In this document: one piece after another, positions 33,274 through 38,485 of the stretch | Position numbering within the stretch: the first letter of the stretch is position 1 | Layout: every line of letters begins with the position of its first letter | Assembly (NCBI GenBank): GCA_022705045.1 | Contig: JAKJFE010000014.1 | Location: 1-38,486, forward strand | Source of the DNA: Pseudomonadota bacterium | GTDB lineage: Bacteria; Pseudomonadota; Gammaproteobacteria; Xanthomonadales; Ahniellaceae | Direction of reading: 5' to 3' | DNA length: 38,486 bases | Position numbers and translations under genes: made by a program | The notes under the pieces: generated by a model | The model's input: the letters and a program-made list of their open reading frames with translations, nothing else | Told to the model about the DNA's origin: nothing | The model's database searches: none

Positions 33274-35460
33274 ATGACGCCGAATCAACCTGCCCTGACG
33301 GCAAGCACCAGGTGGCTGAATGCCTGGGCCTGCGCCGCGTTGGCGGTCTGTGTGCTTGCGGCTCCCTCGGTCCTTTGCGCGAGCACCGCCCCGGCACCAT
33401 CGAATGACGTGGTCGACGAGGCCGTGACGCAACTGGACGCCGATCGCGCCACTGCGCTGGCGCAGCTGCGTGCGTTGTGGGCTGATCCCGCGCAACCCTT
33501 GCGCGGCAAGGCTGCGGTGGCGTTGTCGTCTGCGCTCGGCAAGGGTGAAGGCCGCGATACGTTGCCCGCCCTGGTGACCGAGATGCTCGACAGCGGCGTG
33601 CTCACGCCGACCGAACGTGCCCTGGTGTTTTCCAATCGCCTCAGCGCGCTGAGCGAGCAACGACAGTGGCCGGAAGACGACGCGGCACTTCGCGCCGAAG
33701 CGGAAGCATTTTCCAATGCAGCCCCGGCCGGAGACGGCCGCGCCGCCCCCCTGGACGCCATCGGCGCTGGTCTGCTGTCGCGTGGCAAGTTCCCGGAGGC
33801 CGAGCAGTGGTTTCGCAAGGCCCTGAGCGTGTACGAGGGATCGGGGCCGACCAGGCGCCGCTCCGACTATCTCAGGAACCTCGGCGTCGCCTTGGCCCAG
33901 GAAGGCAAGCTCGACCAATCGCTGGAGGCCATGCTCGACTCCCAATCGATGCGCGAAGCACTCGGACTTCCGGACTCGCATCTGCTGCTCGGCAATCTTG
34001 CCGGCTTGCATCTGTACATGGAGCGTTGGGACCGGGCACTCGCGCTCGCCGAGCGTGCCATTGCCGCCAGCCCGCCGGATTCGGCGTCGCGGACGAAATA
34101 CATCAACAACGCAGGTTCGGCATTGTTCGGACTGGGGCGGATCGACGAGGCACGTGTACGCTTCGAAGAGTCGCTCGCCTTGGCCGAACGTCTCGGTGCA
34201 CCCAGTCTTTCGCCGCTGAACAATCTGGCGTTCGCGCTGCTCAAGCAGGGCGACACGCGTGAAGCGATGCGCCGTTTCGAGCAGATCGAGGCGATTGCGA
34301 CCCAGAACCACGACCTGGCGCTGCTCGGTGTCGCGAAAAAGAACCTCGGCGAATCCTGGATCGCACTCGGTGATCGCCGTCGCGCCGACACCTTCCTGCA
34401 GGCCGCGCGAGACATCTACAAGGAAAGCGACAACCGGCCGAAGGCAGTTGAACTGTATCCGGTGCTGATCGACAACCTCGAGGCACTCGGTCGTCATGCC
34501 GAGGCCTTGCAGCGAATGCGCGAGTTCAAGGCGCTGAACGACGAAATGAACAGCGTCGCCTCGAACGAACGGATCGCCGGGCTCGAAGCCAACGCAGAGT
34601 TGAGGCACAAGGAGTCGGAACTGGCGATCCAGAAGGCCGGGCTTGCGGCCCAGCAGGCCGATATCGAACGACTGCAGGCGCAGGAGGTCAGCGAGCGTCT
34701 GAAGCGACAACTGCTGATCGGCGCGATCGTCGCGCTGGCGTTGATCCTGATGCTGCTGGCACGCCACGTCCGTCTGCGGGCGCGCGCCCACAACGAGCTG
34801 CTTCGCAAGAACGGGGAGATTGATGCGCATCTTCGCGACCTCGAGCGACTGAACGACGTCGTGCGCAAGCAGAGCGAAGAAGATGCGCTGACGGGCCTGT
34901 ACAACCGTCGTCATCTGCAGGCGCTACTCAGCCACCGCAGCGCGCATCCCGACATGGGCTACCCGTTGCTCGCGATCGTCGCCGACCTCGATCACTTCAA
35001 GCGCATCAATGACGCCTTCGGCCACCCGGTCGGCGACAAGGCGCTGCAGCATGTCGCAGGCGTGTTGCGTCGATGCCAGCGCGATGGCGACGAGTTGATT
35101 CGCTGGGGCGGCGAAGAGTTCATCTGGCTGTGCCGCGGCGCGTCGGAAGCGCAGGCACCTGCGCTATGTGCGCGCCTGCAGCAGGCACTGGCCGACCATC
35201 CACTCGAGATCGATGGTCACACCATCACACTCACCGTCTCTTTGGGATTCGCCCCAGCCTCGCTGTGGCCAGGGCGCGAGCCAGACGTCGACCTGGCGAT
35301 CCGACTCGCCGACCAAGCGGCCTACTGCGCCAAGGCGGCTGGCCGAAACACCTGGACCGGCTACAGCGCCGGCATCGAGCCGCCCGCCGATGTCGATCTT
35401 GCGCGTTGCACCGCAGAGACGATGGAGCAGCAAGGCTGGGTGCGGCGCGTCGCGGCCTGA
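33274..35460 (+). CDS. Membrane diguanylate cyclase with periplasmic TPR sensor
   Basis: A 728-residue protein. A signal/anchor helix (about 17-36) leads to a periplasmic region of TPR-like repeats (about 45-470; for example AIGAGLLSRGKFPEAEQWFRKAL), then a heptad-rich helix (LQAQEVSERLKRQL), a membrane helix (about 480-499), a short coiled coil and a GGDEF domain (about 540-705). The active-site motif is GGEEF (612-616), with DHFKRINDAFGH for metal/GTP binding. The inhibitory I-site RxxD (RDGD) lies nine residues before it, so the enzyme should make c-di-GMP and be feedback inhibited. No EAL domain is present. SD AGGA is five bases before ATG 33274. The signal is unknown; the gene is convergent with nrdJb, with 7 bases between stops. 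Confidence 0.92.
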   Translation: MTPNQPALTASTRWLNAWACAALAVCVLAAPSVLCASTAPAPSNDVVDEAVTQLDADRATALAQLRALWADPAQPLRGKAAVALSSALGKGEGRDTLPALVTEMLDSGVLTPTERALVFSNRLSALSEQRQWPEDDAALRAEAEAFSNAAPAGDGRAAPLDAIGAGLLSRGKFPEAEQWFRKALSVYEGSGPTRRRSDYLRNLGVALAQEGKLDQSLEAMLDSQSMREALGLPDSHLLLGNLAGLHLYMERWDRALALAERAIAASPPDSASRTKYINNAGSALFGLGRIDEARVRFEESLALAERLGAPSLSPLNNLAFALLKQGDTREAMRRFEQIEAIATQNHDLALLGVAKKNLGESWIALGDRRRADTFLQAARDIYKESDNRPKAVELYPVLIDNLEALGRHAEALQRMREFKALNDEMNSVASNERIAGLEANAELRHKESELAIQKAGLAAQQADIERLQAQEVSERLKRQLLIGAIVALALILMLLARHVRLRARAHNELLRKNGEIDAHLRDLERLNDVVRKQSEEDALTGLYNRRHLQALLSHRSAHPDMGYPLLAIVADLDHFKRINDAFGHPVGDKALQHVAGVLRRCQRDGDELIRWGGEEFIWLCRGASEAQAPALCARLQQALADHPLEIDGHTITLTVSLGFAPASLWPGREPDVDLAIRLADQAAYCAKAAGRNTWTGYSAGIEPPADVDLARCTAETMEQQGWVRRVAA

Positions 35461-35467
35461 AGGCCGA

Positions 35468-36220
35468 TCAGCCACATTTCGAGTAGCCGCAATTCAGGCA
35501 GGTGGCGCAGCCGTCCATGATGATGGTGGCCTTGGTGTTGCACTTGTTGCACATGGTCGCGCTGGGCGGGAACTGCTCGGCGACGCTGTCCGGGACAACC
35601 GGCGACGAGGCCGCTACGTCAGTGTTTTTTTTTGAGCGCGATTCGTACTGCGCGCGCTTCTCGGCAATGAGCTTGCGCGCTTCCGCGCTCATTTCCGGAT
35701 CGTGGATCAGGCCGATCGACTTCAGGTGTTCTTCGACCACGGTGCCGATCTCGGCGACGATCGACGGCATGTAGATGCCGCCGGCCTTGAAGTAGCCGCC
35801 ACGCGGATCGAACACGGCCTTCATTTCCTCAACCAGGAAGGTGACGTCGCCGCCCTTGCGGAAGACCGCGCTCATGATGCGGGTCAGCGCCACGATCCAC
35901 TGGAAGTGGTCCATGTTCTTCGAGTTGATGAACACCTCGAACGGACGGCGCAGCTCGTGTTCGGTGCCCTGGTTCAGCACGATGTCGTTGATCGTCACGT
36001 ACAGCGCGTGCTCGAACAGCGGCGACTTGACCTTGTAGGTCGAGCCGATCAGCACGTCCGGGCGCTCGACCTGCTCGGTCATCTGGATAACTTCGGCGGT
36101 CTTCGGCAGGGCGATGGCTTCGGCGGGCGAACTCATCGCGACCTCGGGCACGGCCCGGGCCTTGTCTTCCGGCCGCACCACGTTGTAGCCCTTGATCTTC
36201 TTGCCGATCTTGATCGCCAT
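35468..36220 (-). CDS. nrdJb: Class II (B12-dependent) ribonucleotide reductase, C-terminal subunit NrdJb
   Basis: A 250-residue protein corresponding to the separate C-terminal part of NrdJ known as NrdJb in Pseudomonas aeruginosa. It has the TSCPD-type domain (about 60-175: LYVTINDIVLNQGTEHELRRPFEVFINSKNMDHFQWIVALTRIMSAVFR) and a cysteine-rich tail, with Cys at 224, 227, 238, 241, 244 and 249, which includes the redox pair that re-reduces the active site. Between them is a stretch of nine A (35625-35633, residues Ser196-Asn199) in a GC-rich gene. Start 36220 follows GGAAACAGC; ATG 36232 is an alternative. It acts with NrdJa, encoded upstream beyond the H1-like gene. Confidence 0.9.
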   Translation of the reverse strand: MAIKIGKKIKGYNVVRPEDKARAVPEVAMSSPAEAIALPKTAEVIQMTEQVERPDVLIGSTYKVKSPLFEHALYVTINDIVLNQGTEHELRRPFEVFINSKNMDHFQWIVALTRIMSAVFRKGGDVTFLVEEMKAVFDPRGGYFKAGGIYMPSIVAEIGTVVEEHLKSIGLIHDPEMSAEARKLIAEKRAQYESRSKKNTDVAASSPVVPDSVAEQFPPSATMCNKCNTKATIIMDGCATCLNCGYSKCG

Positions 36221-36327
36221 TGCTGTTTCCATCCCGGTCTGGCGCGTCGTCGCGCCGCATTGTTGTGGATTCGCGCCGAAGCGCCGACGCTGCGCGATAT
36301 GGATCGCGCAACGTCATTGGAAAGAGG

Positions 36328-36514: not shown

Positions 36515-36961
36515 TTACTTCTTCTTCGCGGCCTTCTTGGCAGCTTTCTTCGGAGCGGCCTTCTTCGCTGCCGGCTTCGCAGCCTTCTTCGGAGCGGCCT
36601 TCTTCACGACTTTCTTCGCTGCCGGCTTGGCGGCCTTCTTCGGAGCGGCTTTCTTTGCAGCCTTCTTCGGAGCGGCCTTCTTCGGAGCTGCCTTCTTGGC
36701 GGCCTTCTTCGGTGCAGCCTTCTTCGCTGCCGGCTTGGCTGCCTTCTTGGCGGCCTTCTTCGGAGCGGCGGCCTTCTTGGCCTTGGCCACGACCTTCTTC
36801 ACCGCCTTCTTCGCAGCGCCGGCCTTCTTGGCCACGGCCTTCTTCGCCTTGGCAACGGCCTTCTTCGCGCCGGCCATTGCATCACCGGCCTTGTCGGCCA
36901 CGGCGGCTTTCACTTCGGCCACTGCTTCGGCCACGTTGGACATCATCGAATCATTACTCAT
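36515..36961 (-). CDS. Histone H1-like Lys/Ala/Pro-rich DNA-binding protein
   Basis: A 148-residue low-complexity protein. A 35-residue acidic-to-neutral lead (MSNDSMMSNVAEAVAEVKAAVADKAG) is followed by about 110 residues of AAKKA, APKKA and KPAAKK units, like the tails of eukaryotic H1 and bacterial AlgP/HctB-type proteins. It should be highly basic, disordered and bind DNA without sequence preference, affecting nucleoid compaction or transcription. The tail DNA is itself repetitive, so copy number may vary between strains. SD GGAGG lies 8 bases before ATG 36961. It sits between the two parts of the ribonucleotide reductase on the same strand, with hairpins on both sides. Confidence 0.88.
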   Translation of the reverse strand: MSNDSMMSNVAEAVAEVKAAVADKAGDAMAGAKKAVAKAKKAVAKKAGAAKKAVKKVVAKAKKAAAPKKAAKKAAKPAAKKAAPKKAAKKAAPKKAAPKKAAKKAAPKKAAKPAAKKVVKKAAPKKAAKPAAKKAAPKKAAKKAAKKK

Positions 36962-37176: not shown

Positions 37177-38485
37177 TCAGAATTTTCCGTAGTAACCCTC
37201 TTTCAGTGCATCGAAGAGATTGGCGGCAGTGTGGATCTCGCCGTCGTATTCGATCTCGTCGTTGCCCTTCACCTCGACCACCGAACCATCTTCGAGTTCG
37301 AAGCGATACGTGGTGTTCTCCAGATCCTGTTCCTTGACGAGCACGCCCTGGAACGCGGCGGGATTGAAGCGGAAAGTCGTGCATCCCTTCAAGCCCTTTT
37401 CGTACGCGTAGCGATAGATGTCCTTGAAGTCTTCGTAGGCGTAGTCGGTCGGCACGTTCGCGGTCTTGCTGATCGACGAATCAACCCACAGCTGCGACGC
37501 GGCCTGGATGTCGACGTGCGCCTTCGGCGTGATGTCGTCGGCGGCGACGAAATAGTCCGGCAGCTTTGCATCCGCCTCGCTCGCGTACGGCATCGCCTTC
37601 GCATTCACCAGGGTGCGGTAGGCGAGCAATTCGTAGGAATAGACCTCGACCTTTTCCTTCGACTTCTTGCCTTCGCGGATGACGTTGCGGCTGTAGTGGT
37701 GCGCGAAGCTCGGCTCGATGCCGTTGCTGGCATTGTTCGCCAGCGACAGCGAAATCGTGCCGGTCGGCGCGATCGAACTGTGGTGCGTGAAACGCGCGCC
37801 GGTTTCGGCCAGTTTGCCCACCAGTTCCGGCGCCACCGAAGCAACGCGCTGCATGTAGCGCGAGTACTTCGCGTGCAGCACGCGGCCCTTGAGCACGTCG
37901 CCGATCTTGACGCCGTCGCGGATCATTTCCGGGCGCTTGCGCAGCATTTCGCCAGTGACGACGAAGTCCTGGTCCATGATCGGTGCCGGGCCTTTTTCTT
38001 CGGCCAGCGACAAGGCGACTTCCCAGCCGGCGACGGCCATTTCGCGCGACACGTCCTCGGTGAACTTGCAGGACTCGTTCGAACCGTAGGCCATGCGCAG
38101 CATGGTCAGGGTCGAACCGAGACCGAGGAAACCCATGCCGTGGCGGCGCTTGCTCAGGATCTCGTGGCGCTGCTGTTCCAGCGGCAGACCGTTGATCTCG
38201 ACCACGTTGTCGAGCATGCGCGTGAACACGCGCACGACTTCGCGGTATTCGTCCCAGTCGAAGCGCGCCTTCGCGGTGAACGGGTCGCGCACGAACTTGG
38301 TCAGGTTCACCGAGCCGAGCAGGCAGGAGCCGTAGGGCGGCAGCGGCTGTTCGCCGCAGGGGTTGGTGGCGCGAATGGTTTCGCACCACCAATTGTTGTT
38401 CATCTCGTTGACGCGGTCGATCAGGATGAATCCGGGCTCGGCGAAGTCGTACGTCGAGACCATGATCATGTCCCACAGGTGCCGC
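37177..38485 (-). CDS. nrdJa: Class II (B12-dependent) ribonucleotide reductase, catalytic subunit NrdJa, C-terminal part
   Basis: The frame runs off the right edge of the window (RHLWDM precedes the first internal Met at 38469), so about 435 C-terminal residues are visible and the 5' part is missing. The sequence is typical Nrd[22 protein letters not shown] with the active-site Cys/Glu region (N-x-C-x-E), then [56 protein letters not shown] (the PTGTIS phosphate-binding loop) and a C-terminus [13 protein letters not shown] without the Cys-rich tail, which is on NrdJb instead. The enzyme makes deoxyribonucleotides using adenosylcobalamin with or without oxygen. The organism therefore needs vitamin B12; no cobalamin genes or riboswitch are seen in the window, though the promoter lies outside. 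Confidence 0.95.

Follow-up and report, generated by a model that had tools for sequence, protein, structure and literature searches.

A nine-adenine run with stops in both other frames

The gene nrdJb carries nine consecutive adenines in a stretch that codes for lysines, and a stop codon awaits a few codons later in each of the two other reading frames. This locus raises the question of whether the arrangement is a by-product of codon use or a site at which one gene is made to yield two proteins. We addressed the question in a stretch of 38,486 nucleotides (the window), which lies within contig 69 of a 3.35-Mb draft assembly that is 86% complete, and in the nrdJb genes of related bacteria.

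A Pfam TSCPD domain was found in the nrdJb product, and the C-terminal part of NCBIfam PRK08665.1 (B12-dependent ribonucleotide reductase, RNR) matches it with a score below the model cut-off. The gene is coded apart from nrdJa, which lies upstream in the window, and its product joins a TSCPD-type domain to a Cys-rich tail, the combination by which NrdJb is recognized. Between nrdJa and nrdJb lies a Lys/Ala-rich open reading frame of 148 aa (36515-36961, minus strand) that resembles histone H1 by eye and has no match in Pfam or NCBIfam. A convergent gene on the plus strand (33274-35460), with a GGDEF domain apparent by eye, ends 7 bases from the nrdJb stop.

Downstream of the run, the -1 frame reads CAC TGA and the +1 frame reads ACA CTG ACG TAG. 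A preliminary description of this DNA had reported the run and both stops, at positions that the sequence confirms (Table 1), and had proposed that slipping in either direction ends the protein near residue 200. Translation in silico bears this out, with messages of A7, A8, A10 and A11 giving products of 203-206 aa; an A9 message gives 254 aa and an A12 message 255 aa. The Cys-rich tail had been placed at residues 224-249, which fits a start at Met5, while in the 254-aa numbering used here the cysteines of the tail span residues 228-253.

The window contains this one A9 run against a chance mean of 0.01. Two A9/T9 runs occur in the whole 3.35-Mb assembly, the second being the T tract that belongs to a hairpin resembling an intrinsic terminator, so the nrdJb run is the sole one found inside a gene. 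An error in run length, raised as a concern in the preliminary description, is ruled out because the identical run recurs in many independent genomes.

Table 1. Coordinates of nrdJb, its putative slippage tract and associated features in the window
Feature	Position	Strand	Basis
nrdJb, split class II (B12-dependent) RNR subunit b, 254 aa (250 aa from Met5)	35468..36232	-	ORF, Pfam, NCBIfam, orthologues
nrdJa, catalytic subunit, visible to window edge only	37177..38469	-	NCBIfam NrdJ_Z, Pfam RNR barrel
Putative A9 slippage tract, TCA AAA AAA AAC, residues 200-203 of 254	35625..35633	-	sequence
TGA, -1 frame (via one added A or a -1 ribosome shift)	35619..35621	-	sequence
TAG, +1 frame (via one A lost or two A added)	35614..35616	-	sequence
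Confident folded core, residues 61-174, common to both predicted products	35711..36052	-	AlphaFold2 model, invariant columns
Variable linker, residues 204-227, disordered in part (204-218)	35552..35623	-	alignment, AlphaFold2 model
Cys-rich tail, residues 228-254, absent from predicted short product	35471..35551	-	alignment
Run loci in dnaX of family f8: L297, L298, L306-L308, L312-L314, L317, L321-L324			

Conservation of the run within the order

Our sample combined 61 relatives, 50 of them with nrdJb, and the 80 loci that matched best in the GTDB contig collection. Removal of duplicates (L001, identical to L002; L028, identical to L112; and four more) left 125 unique nrdJb loci of the order Lysobacterales/Xanthomonadales, and the partial matches G090 and G306 were left out. 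Locus L112 was excluded from synonymous resampling, synonymous-difference windows, codon rarity and the third-A count, and L256 was read by eye, in the tree comparison only.

The linker bears a run of at least nine A's (A9 or A10) in 87 of the 125 loci, A8 in three and a shorter run in 35. The share with the run is biased upward because the 80 loci of the GTDB collection are those most similar to the protein from the window. In the fairer sample of relatives' genomes, the run is present in 26 of the 50 that have nrdJb (49 counted plus L256), across seven families, and is therefore dispensable. Where a run of eight or more is present, its length is nine in 83, ten in four and eight in three of the 90 loci. 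Elsewhere in nrdJb, outside the linker, 113 of the 125 loci have no A run longer than five.

Codon choice at the site departs from that of the remainder of the gene. Lysines upstream of the linker are coded by AAA in 18% and by AAG in 82% of cases (1729 codons), whereas the Lys-Lys pair of the linker is AAA AAA in 93 of the 102 loci that have such a pair. Free use of AAG by orthologues, which the preliminary description had named as the observation to look for, is thus not seen. Synonymous resampling would create the run in only 0.78 of 86 loci, a set chosen for having it. The residues flanking the Lys-Lys pair vary, as does the phase of the run: among the 87 run loci, which use all three phases, 72 have A9 in phase 2 and 10 have A9 in phase 1. 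In families f7 and f9 the site reads [C/G]AA AAA AAA ACN, and both stops are mostly present again by way of other codons.

Conservation of both stops

Of the 87 run loci, 83 have a -1 stop no more than 7 nt from the run and 82 have a +1 stop no more than 17 nt from it; of the 35 loci that lack the run, 3 have the former and 1 has the latter. The exceptions are four run loci without a near -1 stop, among them L112, which reads into a stop as assembled, and five without a near +1 stop. Upon synonymous resampling of 86 run loci, 3.1 are expected to have the -1 stop (83 observed), 18.7 the +1 stop (81 observed) and 0.76 both (78 observed); hence the flanking stops, whose retention the preliminary description had suggested examining, are kept. 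For the residues they encode, the codons that create them are some of the least used; the codon after the run is mostly NNT and is often followed by GTA or ATA. Codon rarity and synonymous resampling replaced windows of synonymous differences between pairs of loci, which were uninformative in that they ignore the codon preferences particular to each residue and the linker is hard to align.

For an out-of-sample search, 398 genomes of the order were scanned with a pattern in which only the run and the -1 TGA are specified. This pattern occurs in 139 of the 398 genomes, and the same pattern reversed occurs in 11. We fetched 40 of the 139 positive genomes, picked for genus variety. The matching locus is nrdJb in 34 of these 40, 30 of them new to the dataset, and in every one of the 34 a +1 stop follows no more than 17 nt away. 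Both the length of the run and the two stops are conserved beyond codon constraint, and where the run is missing the stops are nearly always missing as well.

Protein architecture at the putative slip site

An AlphaFold2 model of NrdJb shows block pLDDT values of 77-92 across residues 61-180, and most columns that are invariant among 45 aligned relatives fall within residues 57-174. In the model, the slip site coincides with the end of a helix and the start of the linker, followed by disorder and then by a confidently modeled tail. Six cysteines of this tail (C228, C231, C242, C245, C248 and C253) are invariant in the 45 relatives. Foldseek gave no match of the model to the PDB at E ≤ 0.001, and a sequence search of the PDB gave no relative at E ≤ 0.1. 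A role for Cys-rich tails of this kind is described in the portions of PMC5704485 and PMC4520616 available to us, and the former links the Cys-rich domain of another class II enzyme to terminal reduction and to oligomerisation. The last 11 codons of nrdJb (Thr244-Gly254; 35471-35503, minus strand) are rather rare ones, whether or not the locus has the run.

Transcriptional or ribosomal slippage

The preliminary description had read the site as a classical -1 heptamer. Such a heptamer is present in frame, and X-XXY-YYZ sequences (A-AAA-AAC/AAG or A-AAA-AAA) accompany the run. Programmed -1 ribosomal frameshifting at A AAA AAC, as in Escherichia coli dnaX, would end at the TGA and give a nearly identical short product; the conserved -1 stop is consistent with it, and ribosome sliding on AAA-coded runs has been published (PMC4363877, from the part of that source available). 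As the best reading of the site, nevertheless, the heptamer does not stand, since two selected features are left unexplained. One is the +1 stop (81 of 86 loci, and 34 of 34 out of sample), which favors RNA polymerase because a ribosome slipping by -1 does not reach the +1 frame. The other is the ninth A. An in-frame -1 ribosomal heptamer does not require it, yet in 73 of 76 loci an A closes the codon that precedes AAA AAA AA[CG], where 2.9 such loci are expected.

Selection for ribosomal stimulators is not seen either. Shine-Dalgarno (SD)-like words occur upstream of the run in 32 of the 86 run loci, compared to 10% of windows, but this enrichment is explained by the encoded amino acids, which lead to an expectation of 32.7. 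For a folded stimulator downstream, examined as pseudoknot-free folds in 43 of the 86 run loci, the mean z is -0.42 compared to -0.17 in control windows, with z below -2 in five run loci and two control windows.

Polymerase slippage is thus favored by the selected ninth A and +1 stop, by a run length that stays tight while the phase shifts and by the lack of selected stimulators. Judged from these sequences, slippage by RNA polymerase, of the type known from Thermus dnaX, very likely fits better than -1 ribosomal frameshifting, and we consider the latter an unlikely explanation of the cassette. In whatever phase the run lies, the A-rich heptamer also permits ribosomes to slip by -1, which may add to the effect.

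By-product, phase variation and terminator readings

If the motif had no programmed function, it might be a by-product of a Lys-Lys-Asn/Lys constraint together with codon bias, the stops serving as insurance against errors. Its position within a Lys-bearing, weakly conserved linker would suit this view, which nonetheless conflicts with the excess of AAA AAA over the AAA usage of the gene, with the variable residues around the Lys-Lys pair, with the shifting phase, and with the synonymous-resampling and third-A counts. Moreover, pure insurance would prefer an AAG that interrupts the run. A by-product therefore appears very improbable.

Alternatively, the run could be a contingency locus at which DNA replication slippage toggles the tail between cells. 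Two sister genomes differ at the same site, G007 (L112) having A9 and G009 (L015) having A10. As assembled, G007 codes for the short form of NrdJb and reads into a stop, and slippage would therefore be needed to make its tail, unless the draft genome contains an assembly error here. Phase variation of this kind is even harder to credit, since L112 is the single locus of the order set that is out of frame at the run, possibly by such an error, and since the length is nine in 83 of 90 loci. The run must have changed at least 21 times on a tree of 143 nrdJb cores, and it is either ancient and often lost or was gained several times. Along supported branches the run and the stops mostly change together; the independent pairs that differ number five, too few for significance.

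Finally, a terminator formed by the plus-strand T9 for the convergent gene, whose end lies 165 nt short of the T tract, deserves almost no credence, as the run and stops track the nrdJb frame order-wide and a terminator-like hairpin, sought at the T tract, was not found.

A proposed slippage cassette and its possible role

We propose, with a probability of roughly 0.8, that nrdJb carries a programmed slippage cassette, mainly transcriptional, whose predicted products are full-length and tail-less NrdJb. The comparative pattern suggests that two proteins very probably come from nrdJb by design, only one of them having the segment that recharges the enzyme. The cassette would be sited where the folded core passes into the flexible linker, with stops in both other frames a few codons on. 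As RNA polymerase crosses the run, the RNA:DNA hybrid of about nine pairs would realign, so that A's are added or lost. Messages with A9 or A12 would code for full NrdJb, and those with other run lengths would meet a stop at the next codons, giving a product of about 204-206 residues that keeps the core. This short form would lack the Cys-rich tail that carries electrons to the active site. The single gene would then supply two forms of NrdJb, much as Thermus dnaX supplies tau and gamma.

From the conserved features we infer slippage, its mainly transcriptional nature, and a short protein that would be stable, bind NrdJa and be useful to the cell. Our preferred guess is that short NrdJb takes up places in the NrdJa-NrdJb complex but brings no redox tail to them, and in this way sets redox load or assembly. 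A bolder, rather doubtful idea makes tail-less NrdJb a dedicated regulatory subunit and the A9 run a nucleotide sensor that links dNTP synthesis to its own transcription. By analogy with the reiterative transcription that occurs at pyrimidine genes, ATP supply or polymerase speed might, speculatively, govern the frequency of slipping and hence the share of reductase that is redox-competent.

If the slippage cassette operates as proposed, the case would be order-wide and would concern an enzyme central to DNA synthesis, and the predicted second form of NrdJb would escape studies that use the cloned full-length enzyme. Truncating cases of slippage are described as hard to judge from sequence comparison in the available part of Baranov et al. 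2005 (PMC1088944), and the double stop would provide the comparative signal previously missing for them. A run with both stops, in any phase, also makes a simple signature by which to search for further cases. In the literature searched, which most subscription papers lie outside, we found no report of slippage in ribonucleotide reductase, in nrdJ or in this order, nor of a second NrdJb protein, and the accessible portions of the slippage papers PMC3711429, PMC5009743 and PMC1088944 do not name nrdJb.

Comparison with dnaX and other systems

Among chromosomal genes, the standard example of slippage that yields an additional, shorter protein is Thermus dnaX. There, bacterial RNA polymerase slips at nine A's with stops near in both frames, and the two products arise at a ratio of 1:1 (PMC5009743 and PMC1088944, in the parts available). 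Thermus thermophilus dnaX (tau/gamma) and nrdJb are alike in having A9 in the sense strand and near stops in both frames; in dnaX the zero frame is known to give the full-length protein and the short product to retain the N-terminal part, as predicted for nrdJb (excerpts of PMC1088944, PMC5009743 and PMC3711429). They differ in that nrdJb is an RNR gene, belongs to another phylum and holds the arrangement order-wide, with slippage here deduced from sequence.

E. coli dnaX likewise has an A-rich slippery site, a near stop and a truncated second product, which for nrdJb is a prediction, and its stimulators are an SD-like element and a stem-loop. Its frameshifting proceeds in one direction and with two stimulators (PMC3711429, available part), whereas nrdJb is stopped in both frames and its potential stimulators are not selected.

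NrdJa/NrdJb of Pseudomonas aeruginosa belong to the same family and have the Cys-rich tail (PMC4520616, as far as its available text goes), and that portion of the paper, on the split class II RNR of this species, makes no mention of two NrdJb forms. Outside the order but within the class, nrdJb has a run of at least nine A's in only 1 of 122 sampled loci (L238, an AT-rich outlier). The A10 of L238 was rejected as a cassette; the locus has 37% GC, its stops lie at 12 and 23 nt, and the run is probably due to chance.

The dnaX gene reappears within the order itself. Two of the six fetched pattern loci that are not nrdJb are dnaX of family f8, a sister family (L257 was named by NCBIfam). A comparable run was not found in dnaX of 20 order genomes outside f8 from the relatives sample, and no nrdJb was found in the seven f8 relatives sampled. 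Within f8, 13 of 29 dnaX loci have at least nine A's just past the conserved core, at the junction of core and linker. These loci resemble nrdJb in bearing near stops after either a TCA A9 [C/G] cassette or a run placed in a different phase; in some of them the letters are identical and stops of both frames lie close by. Single cases among them weigh less because f8 genomes are AT-richer. Nonetheless, the likeness to dnaX that the preliminary description had drawn holds, and extends to a sister family whose dnaX bears the same cassette.
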